Virus record (IMG/VR): IMGVR_UViG_3300037247_000247
Location: 1-22,500 of that record
Strand: one strand, 5' to 3'
Source of the DNA: a virus
DNA length: 22,500 bases
A program made the position numbers and the translations under genes. Shown one piece after another: positions 602 through 21,058 of the stretch (positions within the stretch are counted from its first letter, which is position 1; every line of letters starts with the position of its first letter). The notes under the pieces were generated by a model that worked only from the letters and a program-made list of their open reading frames with translations, made no database searches and was not told where the DNA came from.

Positions 602-632
602 AAACGGCCGTACTAAATGGGTACGGCCGTTT
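602..632. terminator. Bidirectional hairpin terminator built on ACGGCCGT
   Basis: A perfect 11-bp inverted repeat (602-612 and 622-632) encloses a 9-base loop. Each arm contains the octamer ACGGCCGT. It lies between the converging genes ending at 597 and 714. On the minus strand the stem is followed by TTTTGCTTT, a good intrinsic-terminator tail for the leftward late operon; the plus-strand tail is short. The rest of the gap (633-713) holds only a short dyad at 662-672 and a CCACGGTGG palindrome at 699-707. Confidence 0.75.
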
Positions 633-713
633 AAGGGAGTTGATGAAATGAATCATTAGGGGATGACTCATCGAAGTTATTGTATCACAAAGTGTAAACC
701 ACGGTGGACACTT

Positions 714-1013
714 CTACCCTTTGATTTTATTAGTTGATTGATGCGCTGTAACGCCACCCGCTAATGCTGACAAGAACGATGTAAACAATGCGCCTAATCC
801 CTGCGGAGTACATTCGTAAACGGGAATCCCCACAATTTGTAAATCAGTACACGACAACCCCGCAATTAAAATAGTTACAATGGCCATGACGGCGGCAATG
901 ATAAGTTGCTTTTGTTTTGGTGTATATTTGTCATACCATGTATTTAATTTTGGTAGAAATGATAAACCCAGTGATATCACAAAACCCGCTATATAACTAA
1001 TTGAGTATTCCAT
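714..1013 (-). CDS. Holin-like small membrane protein
   Basis: The 99-aa product has about three hydrophobic segments (residues roughly 4-22, 37-54 and 70-88) separated by a basic loop (KYTPKQK) and a Cys-containing loop. It ends in a short polar tail with two lysines. Size and topology fit a small phage holin or other phage membrane protein. It is the last gene of the leftward operon, downstream of the tail genes, where lysis genes often sit. A strong AAGGAGA SD site nine bases before the ATG overlaps the end of the preceding gene. No endolysin is visible, so the lysis role is inferred from topology and place alone. Confidence 0.55.
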   Translation of the reverse strand: MEYSISYIAGFVISLGLSFLPKLNTWYDKYTPKQKQLIIAAVMAIVTILIAGLSCTDLQIVGIPVYECTPQGLGALFTSFLSALAGGVTAHQSTNKIKG

Positions 1014-1017
1014 GTGC

Positions 1018-1620: not shown

Positions 1621-3201
1621 CTACAGCCGCTGTATTGTTGTTGATGACAGTATTCCGCGCCGCTCCAATTTTGCATCCAATTTCGCATCCACATTATCAA
1701 CTGTGAAGCGGAGTTGCCTAGACTTGTGATCGTAATCCATCGCCGTTATCTTGAATACAGTCTCTTGATTTAGGGAAGCGGTTGCCTCTGGAAATAAATC
1801 CACAATTTGAACCGTTCCTCCACCGTTTACAATAGGCTGCCACAGCGGCCATTCTGACCCATTTCCATCACGGATGAAATCAGAGCGCACCGTGAATGAC
1901 TGCTCTTGCTCTGCCTCGTTACTTAACCCAAGTTCTGCAATTTGCGCCGCTTGTGTGGAGTTTGAATTGTTGATAAACTCTGCAACCTCAGACGGCCAAA
2001 ATGCTTCCGTATTAGGTTCGATCTGTACTTCTTCAAATCTATTTGGGTTTGTTGTCTTGATTGAATAGTCATCCCCCGTCAATGCCACCGCGCTAACCTC
2101 ATAACGCTCACCATCTTCATTCGTCTTACCGCCCGACATCGCCCCCGCTATTGTTAATGTGTTGGTTGCAACACTTGTTATCGTTCCAGTTGAGAAGTCG
2201 TTAATATTTGTCAGCACATCGCCAACCAATACCCCAAGATCGATAAAGTCAACCGTTGCATCTGTTAATGTTGTGGTACTTCCCCCGTCGGCGGTTCCTG
2301 TTGTCTTTGCTTTCCACCCATCAAAATTTAATTGAGTTTGCGAAACCACGTTAACAATATTTGTTACACCGCCCGTGTTTATATTTGTGATTTTGTCCCC
2401 AGGGGAAACACCATCAGTTATAAAAGTAGCACCCGCATCGGTTAATACCGTAGCAGCAACGGCCGTAAATGTTCCAGCAACTAACCCATACCACACCCTA
2501 GACACTGTTGCTACATTGGTGATTCCGCGTGATAGATTTAACTTGTCAATATCGCGTCTGTTCAATACCCAGTCTGGGTTCAACACGGCCGTATCCCGCG
2601 CTTGATAATGTGGCTTGTATTGTTGCAAACTTCCTGCAAGCATAGGATTATCGGTGAACCAAAAATCAATAATGTCAAAGTTTGAATTGCTCAATTTCAA
2701 AATATCACGAATGATGTTAATTGGGTACTCACCCTCTGGTTGATCTGGATTCCACCCGTTAGTGGTAGTGGCGTTGGCTTCTATTTCATCAGTTGTCCCG
2801 TCGTCAATCGTGACATAAGAATCTAACACGTTTTCAATCACATCAGTTAGCGTTGTTGATGAATCATAAAATCTACGTACCAACTTTTCCATCATGCGCA
2901 CAGATGGGCCTTTGACGATGTATTTAATCTGGTTAGCCGATAGCCAAACACATTCAGTTATCCACCCGCTAATGGGGAGGGATACCCAGTCTGAATATAG
3001 TGCTAGTCGTTGCCCCTGGTGATTCGCATAGCTGTCAAATGCGCTAAAGGCATCGGTTCGATTTACAATTACTTCCATTCGAGTCATGCCGAATTTATCC
3101 AACTGCCAACGAATGCCAGCGGATTCAACCGATTTGAATTGTTCTAATGGCTGGGCTAACGTGTCGTTGTTTTTAAATCGAGCGGCTAGTAACTTTGTCA
3201 T
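1621..3201 (-). CDS. Tail hub / tail-associated protein with inserted beta-repeats
   Basis: The 526-aa product is the last large gene of the tail module. The N-terminal third (about 1-235) resembles siphophage baseplate hub or Tal-type proteins: beta-rich segments with ISGWITE and a WVLNRRDIDKLN motif. Residues 251-358 hold two related repeats of about 45 residues (LTDA..F...GV..GD...NI...TNI/TSV...T.L). The C-terminal third (about 365-510) resumes the hub-like fold, with a DYDHKSRQLRFTVD motif typical of tail proteins that close a domain. The start overlaps the upstream stop as TAATG. Two copies of ACGGCCGT lie in it. The hub role is inferred from position after the Dit-like gene and from fold-like features. 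Confidence 0.6.
   Translation of the reverse strand: MTKLLAARFKNNDTLAQPLEQFKSVESAGIRWQLDKFGMTRMEVIVNRTDAFSAFDSYANHQGQRLALYSDWVSLPISGWITECVWLSANQIKYIVKGPSVRMMEKLVRRFYDSSTTLTDVIENVLDSYVTIDDGTTDEIEANATTTNGWNPDQPEGEYPINIIRDILKLSNSNFDIIDFWFTDNPMLAGSLQQYKPHYQARDTAVLNPDWVLNRRDIDKLNLSRGITNVATVSRVWYGLVAGTFTAVAATVLTDAGATFITDGVSPGDKITNINTGGVTNIVNVVSQTQLNFDGWKAKTTGTADGGSTTTLTDATVDFIDLGVLVGDVLTNINDFSTGTITSVATNTLTIAGAMSGGKTNEDGERYEVSAVALTGDDYSIKTTNPNRFEEVQIEPNTEAFWPSEVAEFINNSNSTQAAQIAELGLSNEAEQEQSFTVRSDFIRDGNGSEWPLWQPIVNGGGTVQIVDLFPEATASLNQETVFKITAMDYDHKSRQLRFTVDNVDAKLDAKLERRGILSSTTIQRL
2142..2451 (-). repeat. Tandem protein-level beta-repeat in the hub gene
   Basis: Residues 253-295 and 312-353 of the hub protein align over their length. 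Shared elements are LTDA, then F-x-x-x-GV, then GD, then TNIN, then a second threonine-rich strand ending in T-x-L. The repeat type is known from phage structural proteins as a short beta-sandwich or stem module. It looks inserted between the two halves of the hub. The identity is visible at protein level but is weak in DNA. Confidence 0.55.
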
Positions 3202-5114
3202 TACGCATCACCTATTAGGTGAGATGCCATAGGGGTGATTTCGAGGGATGTTTGATTTGTTTCTGTAGGAATATACTGCGGAGTCGCTCCCCCCGCGTCC
3301 TCGGTAATAAATAAAAACCGATGTTCTTTATGTGGTAAAGTATTAACGAGTTCTCCCGTTGCCCCTCTTATCCTCCCAAGTTTCTGGCTGATACTGTAAA
3401 ACGATTGCAAATCAGACTCATAACGGAAATCGCCACCAAATGTGACGGGAGCTATTGCAAACGAATCAGTTGGGAAAAAGTAGATGCCTACAACCCTCGC
3501 ATTTCCTGTACCCGCTGTTACACTAAATGCAAATGTTATTGTTGTGAACTCGGAAGAAGAAGGGGGTAGTGCGCCTGATGCGTTCAGAGTTCCAAAATCA
3601 ATAAGCTGATACACTCCTGTATCTGCCACGCTTCTAGTCTCATCCAGCAATGGATCTCCTCCAGCTGCGGTTATTGATGATTGTAACCTGAAATCAATTC
3701 CGGTACTCGATGCTCGAAGAACCACCAATATCCTCACAGGTTGCCCAAATGTAGAAAATGAATCATCTGCTGAGATCGCAGTAGTTGCTATCCCGGAATC
3801 TGGCACTGTATTTTCCAAATACCCACCGCCCAGGACACTTGCATCCGCCGTGTTGGTCCATCCGCCTCCGAGTGTCCACCCGCTCCGATCCTTCAAAATC
3901 AAAGCATCTGACGAGATTTGATTTCCGGTATGCCTAATCCCAATGTATGGGATCCCGTTGTTTTGGTAGTTTAACTTGTAACTGTACGGCATACCCCCCA
4001 ACACATTCCACACGTCCAAATAATTAATCCTTTCTTCATTGCCCGCCGATGGGTCGTATCTATTTTTCAGTGCCGACGATGAACAAAACGCAGATGGGAT
4101 AATAGTCTGGTCAAACTCAAGGTAAGCATTATCAATTAACCCGCGATCCGCAACAGTGCTAGACACGGCGAGGATTCCCGTTTGATTCGTGAATGATCCA
4201 TTATTCCCTGAGAACGAAACTCTATACCATGTATTACCCTCTCGGTCAATCCGTTCCATATCAGACACGCTGCCCGCATCATTCACCATTAATGCTTTTG
4301 ATTGGATTACATTTGAAAAGTTATTCGATCTTAGCGATATAGTAATAGTTCCTATTTTTGTACGTGCCCATACATATGCAACTAAATTAGCATCCAATAT
4401 GCTTGTTGTCACCTGTATTTTTACACCACTATTTACACCAGTTGATACAAATTCCTGGCTTTGCCCACCCGTTAACCATGACGCGGGATTCATAGATGTA
4501 GTTGATGCGTTATTGTTTATCCATCCGTCTGCAAGATTTGCGCTTGTGTTATTTTCTATAACATGCGGAGAGGATGGGAAGTCGTTTCTTAAATTAATCA
4601 CTTCGCCACGTCCCGCTGGTGTGCAAAGTAGATTGACGTTAATTCCTATCGTGGATTCATCCAACAACGCCGCAGTAGAATAGTAACTATTGTTATCCTG
4701 AAAACTCCCTTGCTGGATGATAAAATCAGTTGTGGGGGATGATGGGGATAACTGCATCCTAAATATAACATCAGGCTGCGACCCGTTCCTGTATGCCTGA
4801 TAGGCCGTTGATTGCTTTCCCTGTATATGTCGTTTTAACGTGGATAGATTTTTGCTAACGTTGGGTTGATCTGCTGTGGCTGTTACTCGTAATGTAAACG
4901 CCCACAATCTGTTTTGTTCTTCTAAATTAATTGTCTCGGGTGGCCCATCATCACTATCATGCACTGTGGGAGTAGGCACTTGCCCTGACAGTCCAATAGT
5001 GGGTTCATCCATTATCTTGTATGGTGCGGTATTCAATGGAAACACATTCACATAATCGACTTCTGTATTCCCATCATTTATTCGTATAGATGCTACAATC
5101 GGTAATTCTGCCAT
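3201..5114 (-). CDS. Dit-like minor tail protein with two carbohydrate-binding-like segments
   Basis: The 637-aa product follows the tape measure, where siphophages encode the distal tail protein. Residues 1-175 form a beta-rich N-terminal part. Residues about 185-335 look like a phage tail carbohydrate-binding module, with GWINN near the start and the signature GNTWYRVSFSG. A second similar segment lies at about 405-560 (SGWTLGGGWTN to VVGIYFFPTD). A short C-terminal part returns to a structural fold. Such modules commonly bind host-surface glycans. An AAGGAA SD site precedes the ATG, and the stop forms TAATG with the hub start. ACGGCCGT is absent here, unlike in most neighbours. Confidence 0.6.
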   Translation of the reverse strand: MAELPIVASIRINDGNTEVDYVNVFPLNTAPYKIMDEPTIGLSGQVPTPTVHDSDDGPPETINLEEQNRLWAFTLRVTATADQPNVSKNLSTLKRHIQGKQSTAYQAYRNGSQPDVIFRMQLSPSSPTTDFIIQQGSFQDNNSYYSTAALLDESTIGINVNLLCTPAGRGEVINLRNDFPSSPHVIENNTSANLADGWINNNASTTSMNPASWLTGGQSQEFVSTGVNSGVKIQVTTSILDANLVAYVWARTKIGTITISLRSNNFSNVIQSKALMVNDAGSVSDMERIDREGNTWYRVSFSGNNGSFTNQTGILAVSSTVADRGLIDNAYLEFDQTIIPSAFCSSSALKNRYDPSAGNEERINYLDVWNVLGGMPYSYKLNYQNNGIPYIGIRHTGNQISSDALILKDRSGWTLGGGWTNTADASVLGGGYLENTVPDSGIATTAISADDSFSTFGQPVRILVVLRASSTGIDFRLQSSITAAGGDPLLDETRSVADTGVYQLIDFGTLNASGALPPSSSEFTTITFAFSVTAGTGNARVVGIYFFPTDSFAIAPVTFGGDFRYESDLQSFYSISQKLGRIRGATGELVNTLPHKEHRFLFITEDAGGATPQYIPTETNQTSLEITPMASHLIGDA

Positions 5115-5126
5115 AATGTTAGTTCC

Positions 5127-7256
5127 TTAGTTAACTCCTGCTTCTTCCATGACGGTTGATGTTGTTCCAGACCCGCCACCGCCTGGCACATCTCCTATTG
5201 TATTCACGATAACATTCACTTCTACCTCGCTCGGCAATTGTGCAAGTTTTGTTGCTAAAATATCAACCGACCCAGACGCAACAATAATAGACTTATCAGT
5301 AAGCTCCATAGCGGTTGTGACCATTCCAGCGTTCTCGGTACCGGCCACACCCAAAGCAACTAATTGCTCTGTTGTCAAATCCGCCCCAGTTCCAATCAAC
5401 CCCACGGCATTCGCTAGGCGTTCACTTTCTTCTTGAGATACAACCCCATCGCTTAAATAAATGTCAAACAATTTTTGGGTCACTTCTGTAGTTTGTACAG
5501 TGCGCCGCGTTTGTTCGAGTTGTATATCCGCCTGCTCTTGCGTTTTCAATCCAAGAGCGACTGCCAAGTCTAACAATTGCGCTGTATTTCCTTCAACGTC
5601 GCCACCCTCTGCAATAATTCTCGCTTCTGCAATGTCGAAGGCGTTGTTTTTTAATTGTTCGGTGAATGCCATCTCGGCTTCTAGCTTCGCCGCTTGCGCC
5701 GCTTTGAATGCTTCTAAGTCGCCAGTATAAACAGATGCAATATCGCCTTGGCTTGCTTCTAACTCAGCACGTCGCAATACAAGGGCTTCTCTCTGGCTTT
5801 GCGATAAGTCGCCTTGCAATGTATTGAAAGCTCCTAGCCATTCCGCGCCGCCCTCTTCTGCGGTGTCCACAATATCACGCATGGATGCTTTTTGATCCGC
5901 GTCAAGATCGCCAAATAGTTGCGCCGTGATGGTGGCAATCTCTGAGGAGTTGTCTCGTGTAGATTCAACCCATTCACCTTGCGCCGCTGCCATATCATCT
6001 TGAGCCTGAATGTAATCATCAGCAAGGGGGAGTGCTTCATTAAATGCGTCGAGATAATCATCTCTAAGTGTCTTCGCAGCTTCTTCTAGTTGTTCCTTTT
6101 GAAAACGCAAGCTATTGGTAAGCCTATCGCTTACCTCTGTGTTTTTCTCACCAGCTTTTGCGTACATATCAGCTAATTCAGTAGAACGCTCAAATTCTTC
6201 GCTAACATCCTCTGTGGAATCGGCTAAATCTTGGTTTGTACCAACAAGCCCTTTTAAGATTTGGTCTGATCTTTCGTAAGTGTCTGCGTTTTCATTTAAC
6301 AACAAATTTTGGTCTTCAACCATTTCATTTAGAAATTCCGTCAACCTTGCTTGTGTCTCTAATGTGCTTAACGATTTATCGCTTTCCTCTCGCACCAATG
6401 CGCGGATAGCCCTCAGCTCTTTATTAGTCACGCCAGCCGCTTTTTGCGCGGCATCTAATTCACGAACGCTTTTTCGTGCGTTCGCCATTGACGAGATAAG
6501 AGGTCCGCCCACCTCAGCGGTAGTTAATGCAAACTCATCTTTTAGATTTTGCACATCAGCCTCAAGCGTAGATATATCTTTTGCTGTGCCTTTCGCCGCC
6601 CCCCCCACTGCGATCATGGTTTCCTCTGCGGCCTCCATTGTAGCCTGCAAGAATGCGGTTTCTCGATCTAGCCCATTAATCCCTGAGGTTAGTTCGTTTA
6701 TTCGTTCGCGTACCTTTCCCGATGACAAGCCAAAAGTATCAAGTCTCGGAATCGACTGATTCGCTAACAAAAGTGCGAAATCCTCCATCGCCTGGTTAGG
6801 CCCCACATTCATAGCAGCCCCCAATGTGACGGCTACCTCTGCTAGATCAGCAGCCTCTTCTGTTGTCGCCGCTAACCCCATTGCCATAAATCTGTTGGCG
6901 GATGTCATCAGATCGAAATTCGACACCATGCCCTGTGTGGCAACTTGCAAAGCTCCCAGCATCACATCAGCAGTTGTTCCTATGGATTTTGTCAGACTGT
7001 CGAATGTACTGGCGACTTGTTGAACTTCTCCCCCGCGTTTTATCTGGTCAATGGCAACTTGTGCCGCGCCAGCAACGGCTTGAAACGCATTCTTTGCAAG
7101 ATCAAGTTTAGACTTTAACTCAGTCCATCGGGTTCCAGAATTCCCCGCGTCGTCACCAGCTTCCTCCGCAGCATCACCTGCCCCCTCAATCTCTTCAATA
7201 ACTTTATCAAAGCCCTCGGTTATGGCGCGTACAATTAATTCGGTTTCAGTAGCCAC
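5127..7256 (-). CDS. Tail tape measure protein
   Basis: The product of about 709 aa is largely helical, with Ala-rich and Glu/Gln-rich stretches. A short Gly-rich linker (GGGGSG) lies near the C terminus. It directly follows the frameshifted tail chaperone genes, a conserved arrangement for tape measures. The N-terminal third resembles phage tape-measure domains (segments such as LGALQVATQGM, TSANRFMAMGL and RLDTFGLSSGKVRERI). Open reading extends to a TTG at 7262, but I prefer the GTG at 7256 because a GGTGA SD site lies seven bases before it and only one base before the TTG. At roughly 0.15 nm per residue the tail would be about 100 nm. No lytic transglycosylase motif is seen. Confidence 0.85.
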   Translation of the reverse strand: MATETELIVRAITEGFDKVIEEIEGAGDAAEEAGDDAGNSGTRWTELKSKLDLAKNAFQAVAGAAQVAIDQIKRGGEVQQVASTFDSLTKSIGTTADVMLGALQVATQGMVSNFDLMTSANRFMAMGLAATTEEAADLAEVAVTLGAAMNVGPNQAMEDFALLLANQSIPRLDTFGLSSGKVRERINELTSGINGLDRETAFLQATMEAAEETMIAVGGAAKGTAKDISTLEADVQNLKDEFALTTAEVGGPLISSMANARKSVRELDAAQKAAGVTNKELRAIRALVREESDKSLSTLETQARLTEFLNEMVEDQNLLLNENADTYERSDQILKGLVGTNQDLADSTEDVSEEFERSTELADMYAKAGEKNTEVSDRLTNSLRFQKEQLEEAAKTLRDDYLDAFNEALPLADDYIQAQDDMAAAQGEWVESTRDNSSEIATITAQLFGDLDADQKASMRDIVDTAEEGGAEWLGAFNTLQGDLSQSQREALVLRRAELEASQGDIASVYTGDLEAFKAAQAAKLEAEMAFTEQLKNNAFDIAEARIIAEGGDVEGNTAQLLDLAVALGLKTQEQADIQLEQTRRTVQTTEVTQKLFDIYLSDGVVSQEESERLANAVGLIGTGADLTTEQLVALGVAGTENAGMVTTAMELTDKSIIVASGSVDILATKLAQLPSEVEVNVIVNTIGDVPGGGGSGTTSTVMEEAGVN

Positions 7257-7554
7257 TTTCAATCACCATATGTAAGTCTTGTTGAAGCGTTGTCAACTTC
7301 GTCAGGTTAAGAGGCTCGTCTTGTTTATTTGCCTTCTCTACCTCTAAATGCAACGAGCGCACATTAGATATTAATTGTGCGCCCGTTAATGTTCTAATCG
7401 GTTGTTGTGTGAATCCACCGTCATAAAGGAAACGGCCGTTTCTCATTGCTTGAAATTGTTGCCCGTCTGCACCCACGAGCGGTATTGTCATGCCGCTTTC
7501 TGTGAAGCTCCAACCGTGGCCATCAGATTCAAGAGCGCACCAGTATTCAAGGGC
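7246..7554 (-). CDS. Tail assembly chaperone frameshift extension (T part of GT)
   Basis: This frame has no initiation signal of its own. Its only upstream ATG is at 7578, without an SD site and inside the preceding gene. Read through the slippery site at 7554-7560, it adds 102 residues to the first 103 residues of the upstream chaperone, giving a GT-type fusion of about 205 aa. The domain starts ALEYWCALE and ends with a helical segment rich in Leu and Lys. In lambda-like phages the GT form bridges the tape measure and the tail tube protein, and position immediately before the tape measure fits this. The stop lies just inside the start of the tape measure gene. Confidence 0.8.
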   Translation of the reverse strand, partial: ALEYWCALESDGHGWSFTESGMTIPLVGADGQQFQAMRNGRFLYDGGFTQQPIRTLTGAQLISNVRSLHLEVEKANKQDEPLNLTKLTTLQQDLHMVIESGY

Positions 7555-7862: not shown

Positions 7863-8296
7863 TATGTAACGGTTCCCCATACGGCCGTAACGCCTTCGCC
7901 GCCAACGGCGTTCCATGCGTTCGTGACCGCGCTTCCAGTTGAAGGACTCACAAGGTAGTTTTGCAATAGCATGTTTGTCATCGTAAATTCTGGATCGCCA
8001 CTTGTGGGGGCTGCCCCAATACCAATTGCAACCACAATGGGAACAAGAGTACCTGCGTCTGCCAATGGTTGTACAACGGTGTGGCTTCCTAACGTATCGT
8101 TATCAAGAAATCCTGAGAAATCCAAAGTCACAGACCCAGTACCTTGCAAATTCTCCATAATGGTATTACAAAGCGTGGTGATGTCGGTTTGTTCATGAGT
8201 AAGCCCAACACCGCCAGAGCTTGTTATTGAACATGTTACTAATAAACTATTAATTGATATTGTTACAAATCTTGAATGGGTTTTACCTACCGCCAT
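7862..8296 (-). CDS. Tail tube-like protein, smaller paralogue
   Basis: The 144-aa product shares its whole plan with the preceding 256-aa protein. Both begin MAV and soon carry GKTH-x-R. Both then have an IMEN segment followed by a short strand ending in F, a VA-(I/F)-GI strand with a P and G nearby, and a late segment with AVTNAW or AVAISA running to V-W-G or VAGWG. It is therefore probably a tube-type protein formed by duplication. It could be a second tube subunit, a tube tip or initiator protein, or a decorating copy. It lies next to the chaperones, the usual site of the major tail protein. A TAGGAG stop/SD overlap precedes its ATG. Confidence 0.65.
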   Translation of the reverse strand: MAVGKTHSRFVTISINSLLVTCSITSSGGVGLTHEQTDITTLCNTIMENLQGTGSVTLDFSGFLDNDTLGSHTVVQPLADAGTLVPIVVAIGIGAAPTSGDPEFTMTNMLLQNYLVSPSTGSAVTNAWNAVGGEGVTAVWGTVT

Positions 8297-10604: not shown

Positions 10605-11650
10605 TAGTTTCCTGTTGACAGACACATACCTGCACGATTTGCAAACGTTGAAGTCGTGCGCGGTGCTGCGATTGTCATCACGCGCCAGTGAGTTGTCATG
10701 CCATCATCTGATTGCCATTCAACAATTGTAAAAGGCATTGCTTCCACCCATACTACGGTGTTACGTTGAAGGCTAACACCCAAGACACTGCCATCGGCCA
10801 AAAATTGAGGTTTAACCGATCTTACGGCCGTGATTTGTGGGATTGATTCAATAAACTCTAATTCCGTTACGTTATTGTCAGCACTTCGAGGGGTTCCTGA
10901 AATCTCATTGTATTGAGTTTGACTTGCATAAATGGTAATGTTGCTGTCAAAATTATCAGCCGCTTGTGCTGCAATGATATTATTAACAACGGTTGTTGCG
11001 TTGCCCGGCGTGCCCCAAGACAATCCAGCCGCGGAGTTTGTATCTGGGTTATTGGTGTATCCAAATGTCTCGGAAGCGGTTGCAATTTTCACATCACCGA
11101 AGCCGTTAAACAGTGCGTTCTCTTTAGCTTCTGCAACAACTTGCGCAGCTTGCACCGCTTGATCTGTGGAGAATGATCGGCCTGTGCTGTTGTATGCACC
11201 CATTGCACGGAAGCCCACGCGGAATGATTTACTAATCACAGGGACGGTGATCGCTTTCCGTTCTGTTTGGAATTGATCGCGGTCGTCTGAGGCTTCACCA
11301 TCGACGGTGATGTCTGCGGCTGTGACTTCGCTGGTAACATCCCATTCATGTTGTACAAAAAATGGGGATTCACCAATCACCAATCCAGCGTCCATTAAAT
11401 CTTGTACGCCTGACATTGGTACTGATTGCTCACCAATTACGGCCGATTCCAATGATTTCCAGCTATCCTCTGGTAATGCCGAGAATGTTTCAATTGTTTG
11501 CCCAAATTGATTGTATTTGTTTAACGCTCGATGCCATTTACCGCTTGTTGGACTTTTAACCCATTTTTCTACGGTCTTACCTTTCGCGTTAGTTTCAAAC
11601 GCTGGGGTGCATCCCCCGATCAGCATATCACGATTAATTTTGTTACTCAT
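10604..11650 (-). CDS. Major capsid protein (HK97 fold)
   Basis: The 348-aa product has the hallmarks of an HK97-fold capsid protein. There is an N-terminal region without a long scaffold, and an extended-loop-like segment (about residues 105-150) running from DVTSEVTAADITV to VISKSFRVGFR. An A-domain-like C-terminal part includes FTIVEWQSDDGMTTHWRVMTIAAP. The segment resembles encapsulin-like and related capsid families more than HK97 itself. It sits after the decoration protein and the scaffold and before the connectors. An AGGTG SD site lies close to the start, and the start overlaps the upstream stop as TAATG. No separate delta domain is seen, consistent with a distinct scaffold. Confidence 0.88.
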   Translation of the reverse strand: MSNKINRDMLIGGCTPAFETNAKGKTVEKWVKSPTSGKWHRALNKYNQFGQTIETFSALPEDSWKSLESAVIGEQSVPMSGVQDLMDAGLVIGESPFFVQHEWDVTSEVTAADITVDGEASDDRDQFQTERKAITVPVISKSFRVGFRAMGAYNSTGRSFSTDQAVQAAQVVAEAKENALFNGFGDVKIATASETFGYTNNPDTNSAAGLSWGTPGNATTVVNNIIAAQAADNFDSNITIYASQTQYNEISGTPRSADNNVTELEFIESIPQITAVRSVKPQFLADGSVLGVSLQRNTVVWVEAMPFTIVEWQSDDGMTTHWRVMTIAAPRTTSTFANRAGMCLSTGN

Positions 11651-12123: not shown

Positions 12124-12470
12124 TAGTCCACCTCTACATATTTAACATTTTCATCAGTACTGATGAAAGCCGAGAAGCTGCCACCGTTGCCCGCGTAATT
12201 GGCGGGTTTGAAAGCGGCTTCTAATTTGCTCAAATCAGCAACGGACATTGCTTGCAAGCTATCAGCTTCCAATGTGCAACGTTCATTTGCTACGAGTCGC
12301 GCCACAATGGGGGCTTTCTCGCTGTTGGCTGAGTTGGTGATAACTTCGTCAACACGGCCGTTTACAGTTTCAATTGATGTCACAAGGTCTTTAATCAAAC
12401 CTTTTAACTCATCAATTTGAGCTGAGTTGTCAATAACAACAGGCTCTTGTTTTGGTTCTTTATCTGCCAT
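12123..12470 (-). CDS. Nested scaffold protein from an internal start
   Basis: An ATG at 12470 lies in the same frame as the protease and begins MADKEPKQEP. A strong AAGGAG SD site at 12480-12485 stands nine bases before it. The 115-aa product holds the coiled-coil segment and the C-terminal part of the protease protein, which is where a scaffold is expected. Phage lambda C/Nu3 uses the same arrangement of a scaffold nested in the protease gene. Separate synthesis is inferred from the start signal. Confidence 0.65.
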   Translation of the reverse strand: MADKEPKQEPVVIDNSAQIDELKGLIKDLVTSIETVNGRVDEVITNSANSEKAPIVARLVANERCTLEADSLQAMSVADLSKLEAAFKPANYAGNGGSFSAFISTDENVKYVEVD

Positions 12471-13103
12471 AGGTATGTTCTCCTTGTCTTGGCTAAAACC
12501 TAAATCTACTAATACCCTTTTGACAAGGGCTACAACTTTATTTTCTTGCGCTTCTTCTTCATTGCGAACTAATCCACACCCATCATCTACGCTACACGCG
12601 CCAGGTGTGTCTAGTAAGATTGCCAAATGATCATGGCGTATATTGTGTACAATTTCTGTGTATGCGTTCCCTAGAAAGTTTCCCGCTTGCGTTACCTTAT
12701 CGCTGAACCAACCAAGCGAAACCTCTAATACTTTCTTGCCTTTAATAGCGTTCAGTATTTCTAGCCCCTGAGTACCTGTTTGATTCAGCCGTTCAACCTC
12801 AAACCATGCTTCCGCTTTTAATGAATCCTCATCAATGTGGGCATTAAAAACTTTCCCGATGGTTTCAACATCTGGATTGTTTGCCGGAATGGCTTGCCCC
12901 TGATCGCCAGATGGATGATTGATTGTAATTGGACGGCCGTTTAATGATTCTACTGATTCTGCTAATTCGTCACGCTGTACGAGTCGCCCATTCATCACTG
13001 ATTCAATCGCAGCCACAACGGGAGCCACAAGCCACTGTTTGCCGTTCTTTGTAATTCGTTTAATGTCTACGGTATTGATTTCTAAACTATTCGTGTAGAT
13101 CAT
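12123..13103 (-). CDS. Prohead maturation protease (DUF2213-type) with C-terminal scaffold
   Basis: The 326-aa product has a protease half (about 1-180) followed by a scaffold-like half. Visible protease features are GRPITINHPSG with His63, the EVSLGW motif with Ser129 as candidate nucleophile, and NIRHDHLA with His159; these match the phage DUF2213 protease family. A Cys-rich CSVDDGCG follows. After residue 200 a coiled-coil stretch (IDELKGLIKDLV) begins the scaffold. I chose the ATG at 13103, which overlaps the upstream stop as ATGA. A GTG at 13169 extends the frame only through the end of the upstream gene. Two ACGGCCGT copies lie here. Confidence 0.8.
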   Translation of the reverse strand: MIYTNSLEINTVDIKRITKNGKQWLVAPVVAAIESVMNGRLVQRDELAESVESLNGRPITINHPSGDQGQAIPANNPDVETIGKVFNAHIDEDSLKAEAWFEVERLNQTGTQGLEILNAIKGKKVLEVSLGWFSDKVTQAGNFLGNAYTEIVHNIRHDHLAILLDTPGACSVDDGCGLVRNEEEAQENKVVALVKRVLVDLGFSQDKENIPMADKEPKQEPVVIDNSAQIDELKGLIKDLVTSIETVNGRVDEVITNSANSEKAPIVARLVANERCTLEADSLQAMSVADLSKLEAAFKPANYAGNGGSFSAFISTDENVKYVEVD

Positions 13104-13435: not shown

Positions 13436-13466
13436 CAAATGATGCGGGCTAGAAATATGTGTTTAG

Positions 13467-13539: not shown

Positions 13540-13540
13540 C

Positions 13541-13680: not shown

Positions 13681-13689
13681 TACATATTT

Positions 13690-14100: not shown

Positions 14101-14348
14101 TTGGAGTGCCCCTTTTTGATCTTCTCAATCATCCATTCTCTGATAATCCGAGCATTACTATTGATAAAAATCTTAACACGATCAAGCCTCGTTTGGGGGC
14201 GCAGGGCTAACGTATGATCATCAATAAGTTCTTTAACCATATATGTGTTGCCGCCAACTGCATAGCTTCCATCGTCTTGCTTGTAAACAATATCACCCGC
14301 ACCTACGCCACTTCCTGGGAAGTAAACGTCTGTAATAATCTTATCCAT
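14073..14348 (-). CDS. Hypothetical small beta protein
   Basis: The 91-aa product begins MDKIITDVYFPGSGVGAGD and has a beta-rich first half with GSYAVGGNTYMVKEL, then a basic C-terminal half (REWMIEKIKKGH). I chose the ATG at 14348 with an AGAGG SD site; it overlaps the upstream stop by eight bases (ATGGATAA). A longer frame from 14402 would lie entirely inside the upstream gene. The first half resembles a small SH3-like or KOW-like fold (a G-D-I-V strand), but this is weak. Confidence 0.6.
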   Translation of the reverse strand: MDKIITDVYFPGSGVGAGDIVYKQDDGSYAVGGNTYMVKELIDDHTLALRPQTRLDRVKIFINSNARIIREWMIEKIKKGHSKCQDFFQFP

Positions 14349-14682
14349 TGCTAGCCCTCTTGACCGCGTTCTGAGCCATCCCTGATAACATCTGCTGTAC
14401 AAGTGGCTTTATCACTTCGTGACTTGATAACATCTCGCCACATACCTTTACAATATAATCATCAACATTGGCGTTGATGGTTGCCCATGTGATAGGACAC
14501 AATTGTAACACGTCATCCTCACTCTTTAGAGTGTACCTCATCTTGAAATATACCTTTGTAGGATCATGCGGAAGCCCTGCATTCTTATACTGTGATTTGC
14601 TGGATACGGCCGTTACGGAATCAAGATTGTATTCTTTTTTGATGCTGTTACATAGTTCTCTAAGTCGTTTAGCTTTGCTCAT
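14341..14682 (-). CDS. Hypothetical protein
   Basis: The 113-aa product starts MSKAKRLRELCNSIKKEYN. Its middle carries VYFKMRYTLKSEDDVLQLCPITW, followed by a helical region (DDYIVKVCGEML) and a basic C terminus. The ATG at 14682 overlaps the upstream stop as ATGA. An alternative ATG eight codons earlier lies inside the upstream gene. One ACGGCCGT lies in it, coding Thr-Ala-Val. I do not recognise a family. Confidence 0.6.
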   Translation of the reverse strand: MSKAKRLRELCNSIKKEYNLDSVTAVSSKSQYKNAGLPHDPTKVYFKMRYTLKSEDDVLQLCPITWATINANVDDYIVKVCGEMLSSHEVIKPLVQQMLSGMAQNAVKRASNG

Positions 14683-14888
14683 AGTTTGCCCAATCCCCAT
14701 TCCCACAATCTTTTTGCTAATTTTATTAGCTGCTCTGTTTTTGTCATAGCGCGAACTGTGATAGTTGAGTCATCCAGCACGTTTGTTATGACGAACTTAT
14801 ATCCAATCTCGTCGCCTGACTTAACTCCATCGGTAAACCACGCATCCGTATCAACGATTTGATTTGTTGCTTCCCATTTCTCGCTCAT
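14679..14888 (-). CDS. Hypothetical small protein
   Basis: The 69-aa product has a beta-like first half with a GDEIGYKFVITNVLDD segment and a helical C-terminal tail (KTEQLIKLAKRLWEWGL). The DEIGYKFVITNV part recalls the GDIVYKQ strand of the gene at 14073-14348, so the two may be distant relatives. Both ends overlap neighbours as ATGA. Function unknown. Confidence 0.55.
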   Translation of the reverse strand: MSEKWEATNQIVDTDAWFTDGVKSGDEIGYKFVITNVLDDSTITVRAMTKTEQLIKLAKRLWEWGLGKL

Positions 14889-15175
14889 AGTTTATCCCAC
14901 ACCCTTAACAATAAAACACCCTCGGTCTTTGTCCATTCACCATTGGCGTAATAAGATTGAAACCCAACACGACCACCGTTATCCGTATATTTCCATGCGC
15001 CAGCCATCCACACACGATTGCCTTTCTTATCGCGCCTAATCTTTGCATCGGCGGGGGTGTCTTCTTCCATGCCATCATACGCGCCACATTGGAAATCAGT
15101 GTCATCGTAAAGGCCATCATAAGGATATATGACCCCTTCAACTTCAATCTCAAATAGTCGCTCTGCTTTGCTCAT
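14885..15175 (-). CDS. Hypothetical acidic protein
   Basis: The 96-aa product starts MSKAERLFEIEVEGVIYPYD and is rich in Asp and Tyr. It contains a KGNRVWMAGAWKYTDNGGRVGF stretch with many aromatic residues and ends in a strand with VLLLRVWDKL. The start overlaps the fibre-like gene's stop as TAATG. The first 20 bases match those of the gene starting at 14682 at 17 positions. Its job is unknown; it could be a small virion or fibre-assembly protein. Confidence 0.55.
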   Translation of the reverse strand: MSKAERLFEIEVEGVIYPYDGLYDDTDFQCGAYDGMEEDTPADAKIRRDKKGNRVWMAGAWKYTDNGGRVGFQSYYANGEWTKTEGVLLLRVWDKL

Positions 15176-16293
15176 TATGAAATACCTAACCTATCCGCAT
15201 TGAAAACAACATTCTCGATATCCACATTTGCCGTCCCTGTATTTAGATAGACATACAACTCAAGCACATCAGAGTCGGTAATTATCTGCTCGGCTAATGC
15301 GGCGACCGTGGTGCTACCTGAACTTATAGATGCTTGTGAAGCGTCTATCCTAGTGAATATGCCAGAGGCTACCCCGTTAATATAAAACTCTAAAAACACA
15401 ACGACATTTGCAGATATATTGGAGAGCGTTAAATTTCCCGCGAATTGATAGAACCCACTTAATGTAATATTTTCGGGAGCAAACGAAGCTCTGAAAGAGC
15501 CAACAACGGCCGTGTTTGTTACCGTCATATTCCTAGAAAATGGCGTGTTATTGTATCCCTCTAATGGGACGGGTGATGTCGTCAATGCCTGTGTATGGAT
15601 AGGGCTATCTGTCCTTGATTGTGCCAAGGCGATGGGGTCTTGCACATCCTGTGGACCCACAATAATCATTCCCTCTAGGGGATCATCCACAATCACAATA
15701 CCAACGGCAATCACAATTGAAGGCGGAATATTAACCAAATCCCCCGCCGTGATAGCGCTTAAAAATAAAACATCACCCGCAGAGAATGAGGAAGTATCTT
15801 GACCTCCCACATTCCCCAGCCTTGTGATGTATCCCGTTTCTCCATCTGGTATGTCATGGGTTGCCACGCCTGTTACGATGGCATTGTTTACCGTGTTGGC
15901 TTGTGCTAATACAATCGTTGGCAATCCGGAAGCGGAGCCCTCGGTTCTACATGCTTTCCCATCTGGTATTATTGCCCCGCTATTATTGAGAACTCTGATC
16001 ACTAGCTCTTGTGCAATGTTGATTGTTACATCAGACTCTTCATTGAAATAGCTAAGTGCTTTTTTGTCATTGTCATAGAACAATAATGCTTCATCGTGCG
16101 CGGGGTTAACTGTGTTCGTGAATTTTATTGGATTCGTCGTTTCGTTTCCTAGGTCGGTTGTTTGTTGCAGTGTTCCACGTACATCATCAACACGCACTCG
16201 ATTCGATGAGTTTGGGGATACCCGCTCGATCTCTAATTCATCATCATCTTGCGCGGGTGTGCCATCGTTTAAGTCACTTATCTTTTTCGCCAT
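15175..16293 (-). CDS. Fibre-like virion protein
   Basis: The 372-aa product begins MAKKISDLNDGT, a typical N terminus of phage fibre and spike proteins, followed by acidic ERVSPNSSNRVRVDD. Residues about 95-220 hold repeated Ala- and Val-rich beta strands. The C-terminal part (about 255-372) resembles a jelly-roll receptor-binding domain, with SGFYQFAGNLTLSNIS and VFLEFYINGVASG. It lies inside the head module rather than at the tail end. With the preceding collagen-like fusion, a fibre attached to the head or portal vertex is possible. That is inference; it may also be a tail fibre gene moved here. Confidence 0.55.
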   Translation of the reverse strand: MAKKISDLNDGTPAQDDDELEIERVSPNSSNRVRVDDVRGTLQQTTDLGNETTNPIKFTNTVNPAHDEALLFYDNDKKALSYFNEESDVTINIAQELVIRVLNNSGAIIPDGKACRTEGSASGLPTIVLAQANTVNNAIVTGVATHDIPDGETGYITRLGNVGGQDTSSFSAGDVLFLSAITAGDLVNIPPSIVIAVGIVIVDDPLEGMIIVGPQDVQDPIALAQSRTDSPIHTQALTTSPVPLEGYNNTPFSRNMTVTNTAVVGSFRASFAPENITLSGFYQFAGNLTLSNISANVVVFLEFYINGVASGIFTRIDASQASISSGSTTVAALAEQIITDSDVLELYVYLNTGTANVDIENVVFNADRLGIS

Positions 16294-17861
16294 TAACTTG
16301 TAACTCCTAATACTGTTGTGCGCAAATCACCCGCTACATCAATTCTATCTTCGCCATTGACAGTGACACGCTGCAGGATTGGTAAAAGTGGATCGGTTCC
16401 AGTGACCAGTTTGCCTATTGGGATAACGGCCACCACACCCGACGTGGTTTCGGGTAACACAATCCCATACATTTGTATGGATGGAAAGTATACACCAATA
16501 TGACTAATCTCATCTCCATCATCGTCATACACGGTAACGATTGGGAATTTTGGCATCTCGGTAATCACCATGTCAATCGTATTCTCATATGGGAGATTAG
16601 CAACCCGATCACCGCCGCCTGTGCCACGTGCCCCAAGTAGCGGTCGTTTCGTGGACATTGGCCATTTGATGCGTTGCTCTGTTCCATCGGTGAACTTAAT
16701 CACCAACTCATTAGTGACTTGGTTAAACTTGATAGAACGAATGCCTCTCCCGTCGCTACCATCGTCACCTTGCTCCCCTTGCTTGCCATCGTCCCCAGTC
16801 GCACCCGTTGCGCCGCGCTCCCCTTCATTCCCAATTAATCCTTGGATGCCATCTAACCCATTACGGCCGTTAATGGCTGGCTCTTTAATGATACGTATAG
16901 CACCAGATTTGCCTTTCATGCCCCGCAATCCAACCTTACCGCGCTCACCTTGAGTGCCTTGCTTCCCTTGCTCACCTTTGTTAATCCGAAATTCAGGGAT
17001 AGTAATAATGGGGGTCTTGGTTTGCTTTTGCCAACCGTTGGCAATAAGCAACGGCTCCAAGGATTCGATGGTTAACTCTTGTTCGTTAAATATAGGTTGA
17101 CGTACACGAACAAGTACCCAGCGACATCGGCAACGGGGATGAACCGGAATAATTCCACCTGTCGCATCGACGGGGAACACGCCCTCACCTAACCCAAATC
17201 TATCCGTTGTTTCTAGTGTTTCACATAAGATACAAACATCGTCATCGCCAGCGGTTGTGAATTTCTCAGCCTCTACACCGACAGTCACCGCCCCTATTGA
17301 TTTGGCGACGGCCGTAATTCCCATACTAATGCCACCAATGACACGAACGGCAACCGATGTTATTGATCGCGTGATTGCAATCTTATTAATCCGATCAATG
17401 ATAGCTTGTGTTTGTGCGGGCACTGTATCAGGTCGCAGAAAACCAATCGCACCGACTACACCCACAACCTTGCTAATATCACGCCTCTCATCTGGCGTGT
17501 CAATCAATACCTGTGTTGACTTTGATGATGCTTGTGTGGCCACCTCATCTCGAATATTACGCAGGTCATTTAATGCTTCAGTGTGTATCTCATCAATAAG
17601 TGTGTTACGTTCTGATGGTGCAAGTGCAACCACCTCCCCCAAGTCACGGCTCGAAAGTGATTCTGACTTCGCCACCGTTTCTCGAATAAAGGGCAACATC
17701 CAATCCCCATTGTTACCAATAACAAAACGTTCAACCAATGCGTTAACATTGGCATTCACATCACGCTTGATTTCCGCAATGACTCGTTTCCACCGCTTTG
17801 TGTATTCACGTCCCCAGCGATTGCGTAGGGTGATTGATCCTGTGGGGTCGGTGCTAGCCAT
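16293..17861 (-). CDS. Mu gpF-like minor head protein fused to collagen-like repeat
   Basis: The 522-aa product has three parts. Residues 1-270 form a phage Mu gpF / SPP1 gp7-type head morphogenesis domain, ending in the family's Cys/His motif, visible as CILCETLE (about 208-215) and then GGIIPVHPRCRCRW (about 240-253). Residues about 294-322 and 335-372 are Gly-X-Y triplets (such as GEQGKQGTQGERGK) rich in Glu, Lys, Asp and Arg, so collagen-like. Residues about 375-522 are a beta-rich C-terminal domain starting with RSIKFNQ. This minor protein usually acts at the portal vertex in head assembly. Fusion to a collagen-like stem and a C-terminal domain is unusual. The start is a TAATG overlap. 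Confidence 0.75.
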   Translation of the reverse strand: MASTDPTGSITLRNRWGREYTKRWKRVIAEIKRDVNANVNALVERFVIGNNGDWMLPFIRETVAKSESLSSRDLGEVVALAPSERNTLIDEIHTEALNDLRNIRDEVATQASSKSTQVLIDTPDERRDISKVVGVVGAIGFLRPDTVPAQTQAIIDRINKIAITRSITSVAVRVIGGISMGITAVAKSIGAVTVGVEAEKFTTAGDDDVCILCETLETTDRFGLGEGVFPVDATGGIIPVHPRCRCRWVLVRVRQPIFNEQELTIESLEPLLIANGWQKQTKTPIITIPEFRINKGEQGKQGTQGERGKVGLRGMKGKSGAIRIIKEPAINGRNGLDGIQGLIGNEGERGATGATGDDGKQGEQGDDGSDGRGIRSIKFNQVTNELVIKFTDGTEQRIKWPMSTKRPLLGARGTGGGDRVANLPYENTIDMVITEMPKFPIVTVYDDDGDEISHIGVYFPSIQMYGIVLPETTSGVVAVIPIGKLVTGTDPLLPILQRVTVNGEDRIDVAGDLRTTVLGVTS

Positions 17862-18067
17862 TAATCACATATCCCATTTTCTTTTATCTTCACAATCCAA
17901 TCGTCATATTCTAAGGCGGCTATGAATTGCTCAGAGAATGGTTTCTTTTTCTGAGTATTCAGAATCTCGGGCTCTCCGTCCCATGCAATCTTTTCAACCC
18001 ATATGTATTTTACATACTCTTCTTTTGGTAATACCGCTTGCCCGTCAATTGTTATTTGATTAGCCAT
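17861..18067 (-). CDS. Hypothetical small acidic protein between portal and minor head gene
   Basis: The 68-aa product contains WVEKIAWDGEPEIL and ends DDWIVKIKENGICD. It has no membrane segment or motif I know. Its start overlaps the end of the portal gene and its stop overlaps the next start as TAATG, so it belongs to the head operon. Small genes between portal and minor head protein occur in many siphophages but mostly lack a known role. Confidence 0.65.
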   Translation of the reverse strand: MANQITIDGQAVLPKEEYVKYIWVEKIAWDGEPEILNTQKKKPFSEQFIAALEYDDWIVKIKENGICD

Positions 18068-19631
18068 CTATCGCACTATCCTCAATCATATCATCCTCGC
18101 GTTGCAACATATCATCCTGAGTTTCCCCAGTTTGTGGAAGATTGCCGAAGCCTCTCACTTCGTCATCGCTCATCACCACGCCGTTAACTTGCGCGGTTTG
18201 TGCTGATGATAGTGAAGAAGCATAAACGTTCACAATCTCCGCCTCTTCCTTGGGATTATTTTCCAGTATCGAAGGCCATGTAAAAATCCCTGTTTCGTTA
18301 GGCTGTCCCAAATTGTAATCGCCAACTCCACCTTTAGGGGAAGAAAGCACACCGTATACAATCAAGCGGTCTAGCAAGTCTCTTACAATTGGCTCTGCAT
18401 AGGTTCGTTGGCGTGTTGATATTGTACCCGCCCACTCTTTAGCGTCTTGTCCAGACGCTAAATTCCCGCGTTCTGAACCAAAGTAAATACGATTAGGAAT
18501 CCCGCTTGTTGCCGCCAATATCTTTTCTTCAACTGAGAACATACCTTCTGGATTGACATCTTTACCGCCTAGCTCTTGCACCTTCGCATCTTGCAATGTC
18601 AGGTATCTTCTCATACCATTGATGTATTCATCTATTTGATCTTCAATGTCGTCAAGATCACCCTTTAGCAACGTAGCATCACTATCCACCGTTACAGCCA
18701 TACCGCGATCAGCAATACGCCAATATGCTTCGGCACTGCCAGCCAGCGTTTTTTGAATCTCCATTAATATATTAAGAGATCGTCGCATCTTAGGAATTCC
18801 GATCACGCTATTATCTAGCGTATCCTCAGCTAGATGGATGACTCGCGTCCAATGAACGGTAAGTCCCGGTGTCTCACCAAATGATATTGCCGTCCCCCCA
18901 CTTGCGTCTACATTTTCAAACTGTATGGTGTATATTTCTGGCTGCCCAAAGCGAGGGGAAGAAGGATCGCCGTTTAGGTCGATTTGTGCAATTGAATCTT
19001 GACCATACGGCCGTAAATACAATAAGTCATCCAAGCCCTTTAGTGAACCAGGCTTTACTGCCTTCGATAAATTACCACTTCCAATTGATTGCCCCTCGTC
19101 ATCAGTAGGTTGATCATTCAACCCAATAAGGATAATACCGAACTCACCAATGCTTGCTTGTGTATCGGCGGTGCTAAATGTTTCCCAAAGGTCAAACTTC
19201 TTGGCCATCGTTTCAGTGTCTTCTGTAAATGGTGTATCAACCCCTTCATCCTCACTGATCGCTGGCGGCTTTTGCCATGTGGATTGCACATACTTATCAA
19301 CGATACGGCCGCCCAAAGTGCGATCATATATTTGGCGGTAATCCTGATAGGTAATGCTATTGTAAGGTAGGTATCCGGCAATACTCCAAATGTCTCTTTT
19401 GCCATCATGGGAGACACCAGGGAGCCGTCCGCGGCGGTTCCCTGTGGCGTTGGTGGTTGGCTCCTTGCGGTTAAACCACTGAAGAGGAGGTCTATTCGCG
19501 GTAACTTTCTCAACCGATGCCCTCAACTCTCCAAGCTCTCGATGCTTCCTTGCAATCCGTTTCTCTTGATTTTGTATCGCCTGTGATTTCACACGGCCGT
19601 TTGCTTTTTCTTTACGTGATGTTGCTGTCAT
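18060..19631 (-). CDS. Portal protein (DUF1073-like)
   Basis: The 523-aa product follows the large terminase, with an ATGA overlap. The N-terminal tail is basic (RIARKHRELGELR). From residue about 88 the segment YLPYNSITYQDYRQIYDR and GGRIVDKYVQSTWQKPP resembles DUF1073-type phage portals. The typical C-terminal elements GIPNRIYFGSERGNLASGQD and ETGIFTWPSILENNPKEEAE follow, and a helical acidic tail ends the protein. The portal ring is the DNA gate and the starting point of head assembly. Length (about 520) is normal for this family. Two full ACGGCCGT copies and one variant (ACGGCCGC) lie in it. Confidence 0.88.
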   Translation of the reverse strand: MTATSRKEKANGRVKSQAIQNQEKRIARKHRELGELRASVEKVTANRPPLQWFNRKEPTTNATGNRRGRLPGVSHDGKRDIWSIAGYLPYNSITYQDYRQIYDRTLGGRIVDKYVQSTWQKPPAISEDEGVDTPFTEDTETMAKKFDLWETFSTADTQASIGEFGIILIGLNDQPTDDEGQSIGSGNLSKAVKPGSLKGLDDLLYLRPYGQDSIAQIDLNGDPSSPRFGQPEIYTIQFENVDASGGTAISFGETPGLTVHWTRVIHLAEDTLDNSVIGIPKMRRSLNILMEIQKTLAGSAEAYWRIADRGMAVTVDSDATLLKGDLDDIEDQIDEYINGMRRYLTLQDAKVQELGGKDVNPEGMFSVEEKILAATSGIPNRIYFGSERGNLASGQDAKEWAGTISTRQRTYAEPIVRDLLDRLIVYGVLSSPKGGVGDYNLGQPNETGIFTWPSILENNPKEEAEIVNVYASSLSSAQTAQVNGVVMSDDEVRGFGNLPQTGETQDDMLQREDDMIEDSAIDG

Positions 19632-21058
19632 CGTCTTAATCCTTTCTTGCGTCCAAATGTTCCGGCTCTTTTGCCACTGTTGAATCTATTAAATGCACCA
19701 CTTGCCGCATCTACGCCATCGCGTGGCTTTGCTGGAAACCTGCAAAACATATCTACTAATTGTCGATTCCATGAAGCGTGCAATAGTTTAACATTAAATG
19801 CCCCCGCTTGACTAGCCAGAGGTTCTGCCCGCGTTACCTTATCACCTGTTACCTTATCAGGAAATGAAGCAAACCCCGCTAATGTAACACGCGTTGTGTT
19901 CTGTGCTGATTCCTTTCCGCCGCTTCCAGGCTCTTGCTCATGACCTGTTACCACATGGCCATATAATTGATTATCAGATACGGCCGTATTGCGTATGATG
20001 CGTTCGCGTTCTGGTGCTTCCCATTGTCCAATGATTAAATCAATAATGTAATAAGTATCATTGGCTTTTACCATCAACAAACCCGCCGTATAATCACCTG
20101 CCCCTTTAGTCCCTGCCTTATCCCAATATCTTACGTATTGACCCCCACTAGGAACGGATGTCACCACCTCAAACATTCCACGGGTAAACATTCCACCCTC
20201 TCGCGTTGTGGGTTGCTGTTGATATAGTGCCCCGAAAAAGTAATCACCTAGCTTTCCCTTGATCTTGTTCAACTTATCAATTGTATATCGTGAGGGGTTA
20301 AGTGCTTCCCCTAAATTCCTTGTATCTTGTTCGATGGTGCAAGTGCTTGGGTATTCTGGCAACTCTTCTTTGATTGCTTCATAGTGCAAAATGTGCCAAT
20401 GTTCTGGCGACTCTTCCTCGATGTCAAGCAACCACCCAGAAAGATCGTTAACATCCCACCGCGTTTGGATAATGATAATTGCTTCGTTTGGCTCTGCTCT
20501 TGTATAGAATGTGGACATGTACCAATCAGTATTTCTATCCTGAATAACAATAGACTTTGCTTCTTCTGCATTCTTTACGGGGTCATCAATAATCCCTAAG
20601 TGGAAACCCTTCCCCGTGATTGGGCCACCTACGCCAGCCGCCCATAAACCACCACCGCTTGTTGTTTCCCAATGCTTTACCGCCGCGGCATCATCTTTTA
20701 ATTGCCCACCAATACGGGTGAAATTATCACGGGAGTTTCTTGACAATGTATATGCTAAATCAGCAGCGTATGAATTGATGCCAACAAAGCGGGCGGGATG
20801 CCTGTATAAATAATACGCGCTAAACATGCGTGATATGGTTTCGGACTTGCCATGTCGAGGTGGCATGAATACCATCAGCCGATTGATCTTGTCGTCTGCG
20901 ACATCTTGCAAATTATTGATAAGTGATTTTAAGTATTGGGGGGTTGAGTCAAAACGTGGATTTACAATCTTTATATAGTCGGCAAAGGATAATACGGCCG
21001 TTTTATTGGGTGAGGTAAACCATGTATCTAGTTTAGGAATCGTTATCGTTGGGTACAT
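19628..21058 (-). CDS. terL: Terminase large subunit
   Basis: The 476-aa product has an N-terminal ATPase with a Walker A motif at residues 66-72 (PPRHGKS) and a Walker B motif near 153-159 (HLGIIDD). A C-terminal RNase H-like nuclease follows, with RYWDKAGTKGAGDYTAG as its first acidic motif (about residues 305-321) and later conserved Glu/Asp residues near EQEPGSGGKES. It drives DNA into the head and cuts it. The gene overlaps the small subunit by 26 bases and the portal as ATGA. Length is typical for the Terminase_6 type. Two ACGGCCGT copies lie here, both coding Thr-Ala-Val. Confidence 0.92.
   Translation of the reverse strand: MYPTITIPKLDTWFTSPNKTAVLSFADYIKIVNPRFDSTPQYLKSLINNLQDVADDKINRLMVFMPPRHGKSETISRMFSAYYLYRHPARFVGINSYAADLAYTLSRNSRDNFTRIGGQLKDDAAAVKHWETTSGGGLWAAGVGGPITGKGFHLGIIDDPVKNAEEAKSIVIQDRNTDWYMSTFYTRAEPNEAIIIIQTRWDVNDLSGWLLDIEEESPEHWHILHYEAIKEELPEYPSTCTIEQDTRNLGEALNPSRYTIDKLNKIKGKLGDYFFGALYQQQPTTREGGMFTRGMFEVVTSVPSGGQYVRYWDKAGTKGAGDYTAGLLMVKANDTYYIIDLIIGQWEAPERERIIRNTAVSDNQLYGHVVTGHEQEPGSGGKESAQNTTRVTLAGFASFPDKVTGDKVTRAEPLASQAGAFNVKLLHASWNRQLVDMFCRFPAKPRDGVDAASGAFNRFNSGKRAGTFGRKKGLRR

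Follow-up and report, generated by a model that had tools for sequence, protein, structure and literature searches.

An octamer palindrome recurs throughout a phage structural region

The 22.5-kb stretch of viral DNA analyzed here (the whole of record IMGVR_UViG_3300037247_000247, positions 1 to 22,500; hereafter the window) carries on its minus strand genes for a large terminase, a portal protein, a head maturation protease-like protein, a major head protein and tail-like proteins, together with a phage-borne tRNA-Trp. Within it, the 8-letter palindrome ACGGCCGT occurs in 17 exact copies, corresponding to 756 per Mb. These copies, two near-copies and the tRNA are located as follows, with no strand assigned to the octamers.

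604..611, copy 1 of ACGGCCGT, outside called genes
623..630, copy 2, 19 bp from copy 1, outside called genes
2459..2466, copy 3, T-A-V codons of gene 1621-3201
2585..2592, copy 4, T-A-V, gene 1621-3201
7432..7439, copy 5, N-G-R, gene 7246-7578
7881..7888, copy 6, Y-G-R, gene 7488-7916, also overlapping gene 7862-8296
10824..10831, copy 7, T-A-V, major head protein gene 10604-11650
11439..11446, near-copy ACGGCCGA, CGGCCG core intact, last base different
12354..12361, copy 8, N-G-R, protease-like gene 12123-13169
12933..12940, copy 9, N-G-R, protease-like gene 12123-13169
13466-13539, minus strand, tRNA-Trp (CCA)
14606..14613, copy 10, T-A-V, gene 14341-14706
15506..15513, copy 11, T-A-V, gene 15175-16293
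16863..16870, copy 12, N-G-R, gene 16293-17861
17308..17315, copy 13, T-A-V, gene 16293-17861
19007..19014, copy 14, L-R-P-Y, portal gene 18060-19631
19305..19312, near-copy ACGGCCGC, CGGCCG core intact, last base different
19593..19600, copy 15, N-G-R, portal gene 18060-19631
19980..19987, copy 16, T-A-V, large terminase gene 19628-21058
20994..21001, copy 17, T-A-V, large terminase gene 19628-21058

The original prediction had set 17 octamers against about 0.2 expected, and the exact coordinates and expectations bear this out. Dinucleotide shuffles of the window gave a mean of 0.22 copies and a maximum of 2, Markov models of orders 1, 2 and 3 predicted 0.21, 0.20 and 0.45 copies, and the core-masked Markov expectation was 0.13. 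The third-order model, which had been singled out in advance as a possible refutation, thus leaves the enrichment standing (0.45 vs 17). Expectations at orders of 4 and above climb (2.5, 12.5) solely because the octamer itself dominates the word counts. Our recount also agreed that all 19 CGGCCG hexamers lie in ACGGCCG and that 17 of them complete the octamer. Only 3 single-mismatch neighbours of ACGGCCGT were present in the window, and no other palindromic octamer exceeded 2 copies.

Fifteen of the 17 copies lie inside called genes and two (604 and 623) outside. The coding copies are read as T-A-V (8), [N/Y]-G-R (6) or L-R-P-Y (1), consistent with the two main reading frames remarked on earlier except for one site in the third frame. 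Sites that are mostly coding and chiefly in two frames might reflect a bias in codons, GC or protein composition, with no force acting on the word itself. However, codon shuffles that preserved the proteins and the codon usage gave a mean of 0.54 octamers and a maximum of 3, vs 16 observed (15 sites, one counted twice for its two overlapping genes). Codon choice therefore fails to explain the copies, as had been claimed, and an origin in composition can hardly hold. The flanking sequence is different at every window copy, which argues against a repeat family, mobile element or assembly artefact.

The octamer is a genome-wide feature of one Anaerolineae order

A total of 84,980 species genomes were scanned for three octamers in close succession. 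The matches listed include the Chloroflexota genomes ACE_CHL11, Go_SlAct_bin_68, CFX1, CFX4, CFX8, BJ8, CHL1, SJ142 and more, as well as scattered GC-rich actinobacteria and others. At least 17 Chloroflexota genomes among these listed matches (G001-G017) contain 6,316-15,176 copies of ACGGCCGT each vs 40-459 of the reversed word, and counts are at background in six genomes from outside Chloroflexota that the scan also listed (G018-G023). In a sample of 298 genomes of the class Anaerolineae, only 11 carry more than 1,000 copies, all from one order. Within that order, represented by 56 draft genomes of which two are labelled Ardenticatenaceae, 31 genomes exceed 1,000 copies; the rich ones hold about 3,000-15,000 each, or about 1-2 per kb, and no other part of the class sample showed comparable enrichment. 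The hosts whose CGGCCG core is flanked by an A...T outer pair (A-type) reach about 1,000-2,100 copies per Mb, and the observed/expected ratio in sampled genomes, about 15-62 by an order-2 model, becomes 73-124 once the core is masked.

These data indicate that the 17 octamers very probably mirror a genome-wide highly iterated palindrome (HIP) of this order, akin to HIP1 (GCGATCGC) of cyanobacteria. That the phage mirrors a host genome had been predicted, with absence from all plausible hosts as the contrary outcome, and the reading of the octamer as a host-range marker likewise holds, by its restriction to one order. Its recurrence in many independently named assemblies and at orthologous rpoB positions (see below) refutes the repeat or artefact explanation, to which we give practically no credence.

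One contig, L451 (G338:C1, 16.8 kb), has no copy of ACGGCCGT even though its genome averages about 1.5 per kb. It could be recently acquired DNA or a binning error, and octamer absence could flag foreign DNA.

The outer base pair of the octamer differs between lineages

The CGGCCG core is constant or enriched in most lineages of the order, and the outer pair is lineage-specific. A...T (ACGGCCGT) is the type of the largest group. T...A (TCGGCCGA) was found in two genomes, G329 (87 of 119 sampled cores) and G129 (51 of 68), and G...C (GCGGCCGC) in one, G216 (61 of 72 sampled cores). A loose type, with no fixed outer pair and a core enriched several-fold, is represented by G186, G312, G238, G349 and G350. 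In G336, CGGCCG is nearly gone (447 genome-wide) and 3,665 copies of TGCCGGCA are present instead (loci L257-L259, L359 and L405), indicating that the usual iterated palindrome has given way to another; TGCCGGCA also occurs 886 times in G337.

On an rpoB tree whose internal support is uneven, the A-type requires 2 changes vs 16.3 for shuffled labels. Single-mismatch variants of the octamer are in excess solely at the outermost base (TCGGCCGT 5-7x, GCGGCCGT about 3x), and internal single-base changes are near or below expectation. The rpoB positions of A-type octamers showed no overlap with those of T-type genomes, so that sites have not simply been relabelled.

Permissible sites are nearly saturated and conserved between species

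The frames able to hold the octamer are T-A-V, [N/D/H/Y]-G-R and x-R-P-x. With genes called by a simple longest-open-reading-frame rule, T-A-V is written ACG-GCC-GTN (ACGGCCGTN) in 186 of 187 cases in G011 (in a 200-kb sample), 136 of 139 in G339, 58 of 58 in G005 and 51 of 51 in G002, and in viruses in 7 of 7 cases in the window, 12 of 12 in L149 and 13 of 13 in L186. [NDHY]GR is typically written as the octamer in 80-100% of cases.

Across 26 kb alignable between G011 and G339 at 79% identity, a conserved stretch surrounding rpoBC, 38 of 45 octamers (84%) are kept, vs 20% of all octamers and 22% of anagrams. The 84 octamers present in rpoB across 23 A-type genomes occupy 9 columns of the alignment, and 21 genomes share the commonest one. 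Where the amino acids are identical, the rpoB octamer is kept in 88-100% of cases among A-type genomes and in 5% against non-A genomes, and other octamers are kept in 14-17%. The nearly invariable ACG-GCC spelling of T-A-V and the lack of conservation of octamers of like composition speak further against a compositional origin. Part of the positional sharing is a consequence of permissible sites being nearly saturated, and not of a function tied to position.

Octamer spacing is near Poisson, with gaps of up to 50 bp mildly short in number. Regular spacing, as from a spacing-limited function, is thereby ruled out. Intergenic octamer density is below coding density, a contrast that is not decisive on a neutral ratchet, as lower GC and slow kinetics might account for it.

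The octamer has altered the amino-acid sequences of host proteins

The tripeptide TAV is 6.3-7.7x over amino-acid expectation in A-type hosts and 7.5x in HIP-bearing viruses, vs 1.1x in HIP-free viruses and 0.4x in HIP-free genomes of the order; the window gives 2.7x from small numbers. Its anagrams TVA, VAT and AVT are at about 1x, which again refutes compositional bias. Correspondingly, SAE/SAD reach 4.6x in T-type G329 and AAA 4.3x in G-type G216, each as predicted from the octamer of that genome. Therefore, the DNA word has created amino-acid strings, an effect beyond codon choice.

The octamer might alternatively be a DNA-uptake or self-recognition tag, with cells keeping or importing octamer-bearing DNA and phages carrying it to evade destruction. 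Hosts and phages alike carry the word and each viral locus has one dominant type, as would suit a tag, and tags of comparable density are known in other bacteria; uptake sequences and Chi sites, too, are short words far above expectation genome-wide. However, near-saturation even at 19-bp separation, together with roughly Poisson spacing, exceeds what a tag needs, and Chi sites and uptake sequences are not palindromic as a rule, which also counts against a tag. To our knowledge, neither near-saturation of permissible codons nor a comparable proteome change is known for them. We consider this explanation improbable.

Three methyltransferase families and Vsr do not track the octamer

We examined three methyltransferase families, C5 (PF00145), N4/N6 (PF01555) and D12 (PF02086), in the genomes of the order, and none of them tracks the octamer trait. 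C5 is present in 26 of 56 genomes and absent from many of the richest (G001, G014, G005, G002, G015 and G339), good PF01555 matches are lacking in G005, G338, G339 and G344, and D12, which is near-universal, is akin to DpnM/Dam (GATC) and extends to genomes lacking this HIP. ATGGCCGT, the sequence that deamination of a methylated CpG would yield, is not consistently in excess among A-type genomes. These families were thus rejected as the driver, and the earlier option of a modification site is unsupported by them. Vsr occurs in 8 of 56 genomes; very-short-patch repair was rejected as the source because Vsr is too rare and many of the genomes richest in the octamer lack its C5 partner. The loose-, T- and G-type genomes G312, G186, G329 and G216 have 3-6 C5 matches, more than most A-type genomes, and T-type G129 has one only.

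For cyanobacterial HIPs, whose frequency tracks methyltransferases, Elhai proposed a methylation-guided repair ratchet (PMC4390886). In the present order, a CGGCCG or GGCC methyltransferase would mark sites and G-methyl-C-directed mismatch repair would convert neighbours and protect the palindrome, with no selected function needed. This main rival gains from the tracking of methyltransferases by HIP1 and alternate HIPs in cyanobacteria (PMC4390886), from near-misses that concentrate at the outermost base as in HIP1, and from the marking of phage DNA, as expected of a cell-wide process. Moreover, D12 enzymes making GGm4CC exist (PMC3425538, PMC6560206), so the D12 enzyme of the order could have a changed specificity (another family, or a gene lost in a draft-genome gap, might also supply a cognate enzyme), and GGm4CC methyltransferases affect replication and ultraviolet tolerance (PMC6560206). 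However, the distributions of C5, PF01555, D12 and Vsr given above and the lack of a consistent ATGGCCGT excess all count against a ratchet, which also leaves the lineage-specific outer A...T, T...A and G...C pairs unexplained. We regard it as a serious but unlikely explanation.

The octamer in viral relatives

The nearest viral terminase relative, L005 (63% identity), has 12 copies of ACGGCCGT in 10.4 kb and none of GCGATCGC, and the remaining 12 relatives found have no copy of ACGGCCGT. The palindrome is therefore not a trait of the phage family and tracks something else, presumably the host. Closer relatives were sought via the portal and major head proteins and none was found. Among viral loci, 21 are strongly A-type, with 0-3 copies of the T-type word each, and at least two, L600 and L583, are T-type with no A-type word; every viral locus is dominated by a single octamer type. 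One viral locus, L199 (IMGVR_UViG_3300049045_000044), has 71 CGGCCG and only 14 full octamers, resembling loose-type G186 and G312. L016 (IMGVR_UViG_3300041964_000194), a distant terminase relative and one of the 12 without ACGGCCGT, carries 23 copies of the cyanobacterial HIP1 word GCGATCGC in 14 kb, and is a parallel example of a phage mirroring a host palindrome.

Host imprint and retention of the octamer

The proportion of cores forming full octamers in the window (17 of 19, 89%) and its low GC resemble G344 and G330 (85%). In core-masked tetranucleotide usage, the window is nearest, among A-type genomes, to G330, G331, G202 and G344. We infer a long history of phage replication in A-type hosts, likeliest the lower-GC genomes around G202/G330/G331 or G344. 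A search for a direct host link with the window DNA gave no more than a tRNA-Trp match and a short piece of terminase.

Taken as a whole, we find it likely that the window octamers combine an imprint of the host HIP with the action of a host factor that makes octamers hard to lose. Such a putative factor would recognise CGGCCG with a preferred outer base, and on all DNA in the cell, that of phages too, an octamer would rarely be lost once formed. As the mechanism we prefer weak site-by-site selection for binding of a putative conserved host DNA-binding protein, with about an even chance of being right. A binder of the CGGCCG core with an adjustable outer contact would fit the switches between lineages, the copies in phages and the cost in amino acids, and its candidate roles are chromosome maintenance, recombination or self-recognition. 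A bolder version, which we put forward tentatively and hold to be somewhat doubtful, is a novel DNA-marking system of this order in which a putative protein, reading CGGCCG with an outer base tuned by lineage, would impose the octamer on every host and phage replicon to near-saturation, altering proteins in the process and without methylation; a shift in its preference would rewrite the word genome-wide, and viruses would carry a host-lineage barcode.

Several points weigh against the combination of imprint and retaining factor. The best overall tetranucleotide match to the window is T-type G329, which makes host placement below the order level tentative. Within the order, the best terminase match (59%) lies on a 4.6-kb contig of G321 that has zero octamers, G321 itself lacks the A-type octamer, and no direct host link was found, either as a CRISPR (clustered regularly interspaced short palindromic repeats) spacer or as a prophage in an A-type genome. 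No trans-acting factor emerged among the methyltransferase families and Vsr examined. Finally, conservation and saturation are expected under selection and under biased repair alike, and coding/intergenic density and spacing fit both, so that these observations do not favour one mechanism over the other.

Comparison with known iterated words

In cyanobacteria, HIP-class words are palindromes many-fold over expectation at about 300-2700 per Mb. The earlier suggestion of a likeness to HIP1 with a different sequence holds, as A-type hosts lie at this density, deviations of the outer bases occur in A-type genomes and alternates replace one another (A, T, G and loose types, and TGCCGGCA in G336). 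Like HIP1, the octamer occurs at about 1 per kb or more genome-wide and deviates at its first or last base (PMC4390886). It is not HIP1 proper, which is GCGATCGC in a cyanobacterium or its phage; the word here is ACGGCCGT and the host order belongs to Chloroflexota. Unlike HIP1, it has a CGGCCG core and an outer pair that shifts between lineages, and no cognate family was found across HIP genomes among the C5, N4/N6 and D12 methyltransferases searched. Cyanobacterial alternate HIPs include TCGATCGA, GGGATCCC, GGCGCC, rCCGGy and GCsGC (PMC4390886), and there too relatives swap one HIP for another, some retaining the core with a new outer pair. In contrast to the present case, those alternates are sporadic and alternative cores track a methyltransferase, whereas the Chloroflexota HIP has one form across a large clade and is tracked by no tested methyltransferase family.

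In enterobacteria, over-representation near Dcm sites is driven by Vsr, which makes only T-to-C changes. That case resembles the present one in having a word made common, there by repair bias, but most HIP genomes here lack Vsr and its C5 partner.

The literature searched reports no iterated palindrome in Chloroflexota and mentions the octamer only incidentally in unrelated works. This HIP family is thus new to that literature; it belongs to a second phylum, switches type naturally and is carried by viruses. HIP1 has gone unexplained for about three decades, in studies confined to cyanobacteria and entangled with methyltransferases. An independent HIP with outer-base switches, in genomes without obvious methyltransferase families, makes the cause searchable by gene co-occurrence. 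Moreover, near-saturation and the shifts in TAV, SAE and AAA represent a DNA word steering proteome composition, and octamer type offers an easy way, based on composition, to mark the hosts of phages that infect wastewater Chloroflexota, which are abundant but mostly uncultured.

Additional features of the window

Two minus-strand genes of the window have further features. The product of 16293-17861 is a head-morphogenesis-like protein with a collagen-like repeat at residues about 295-371. The major head protein (10604-11650) matches DUF6260 and, weakly, encapsulin (Linocin_M18).

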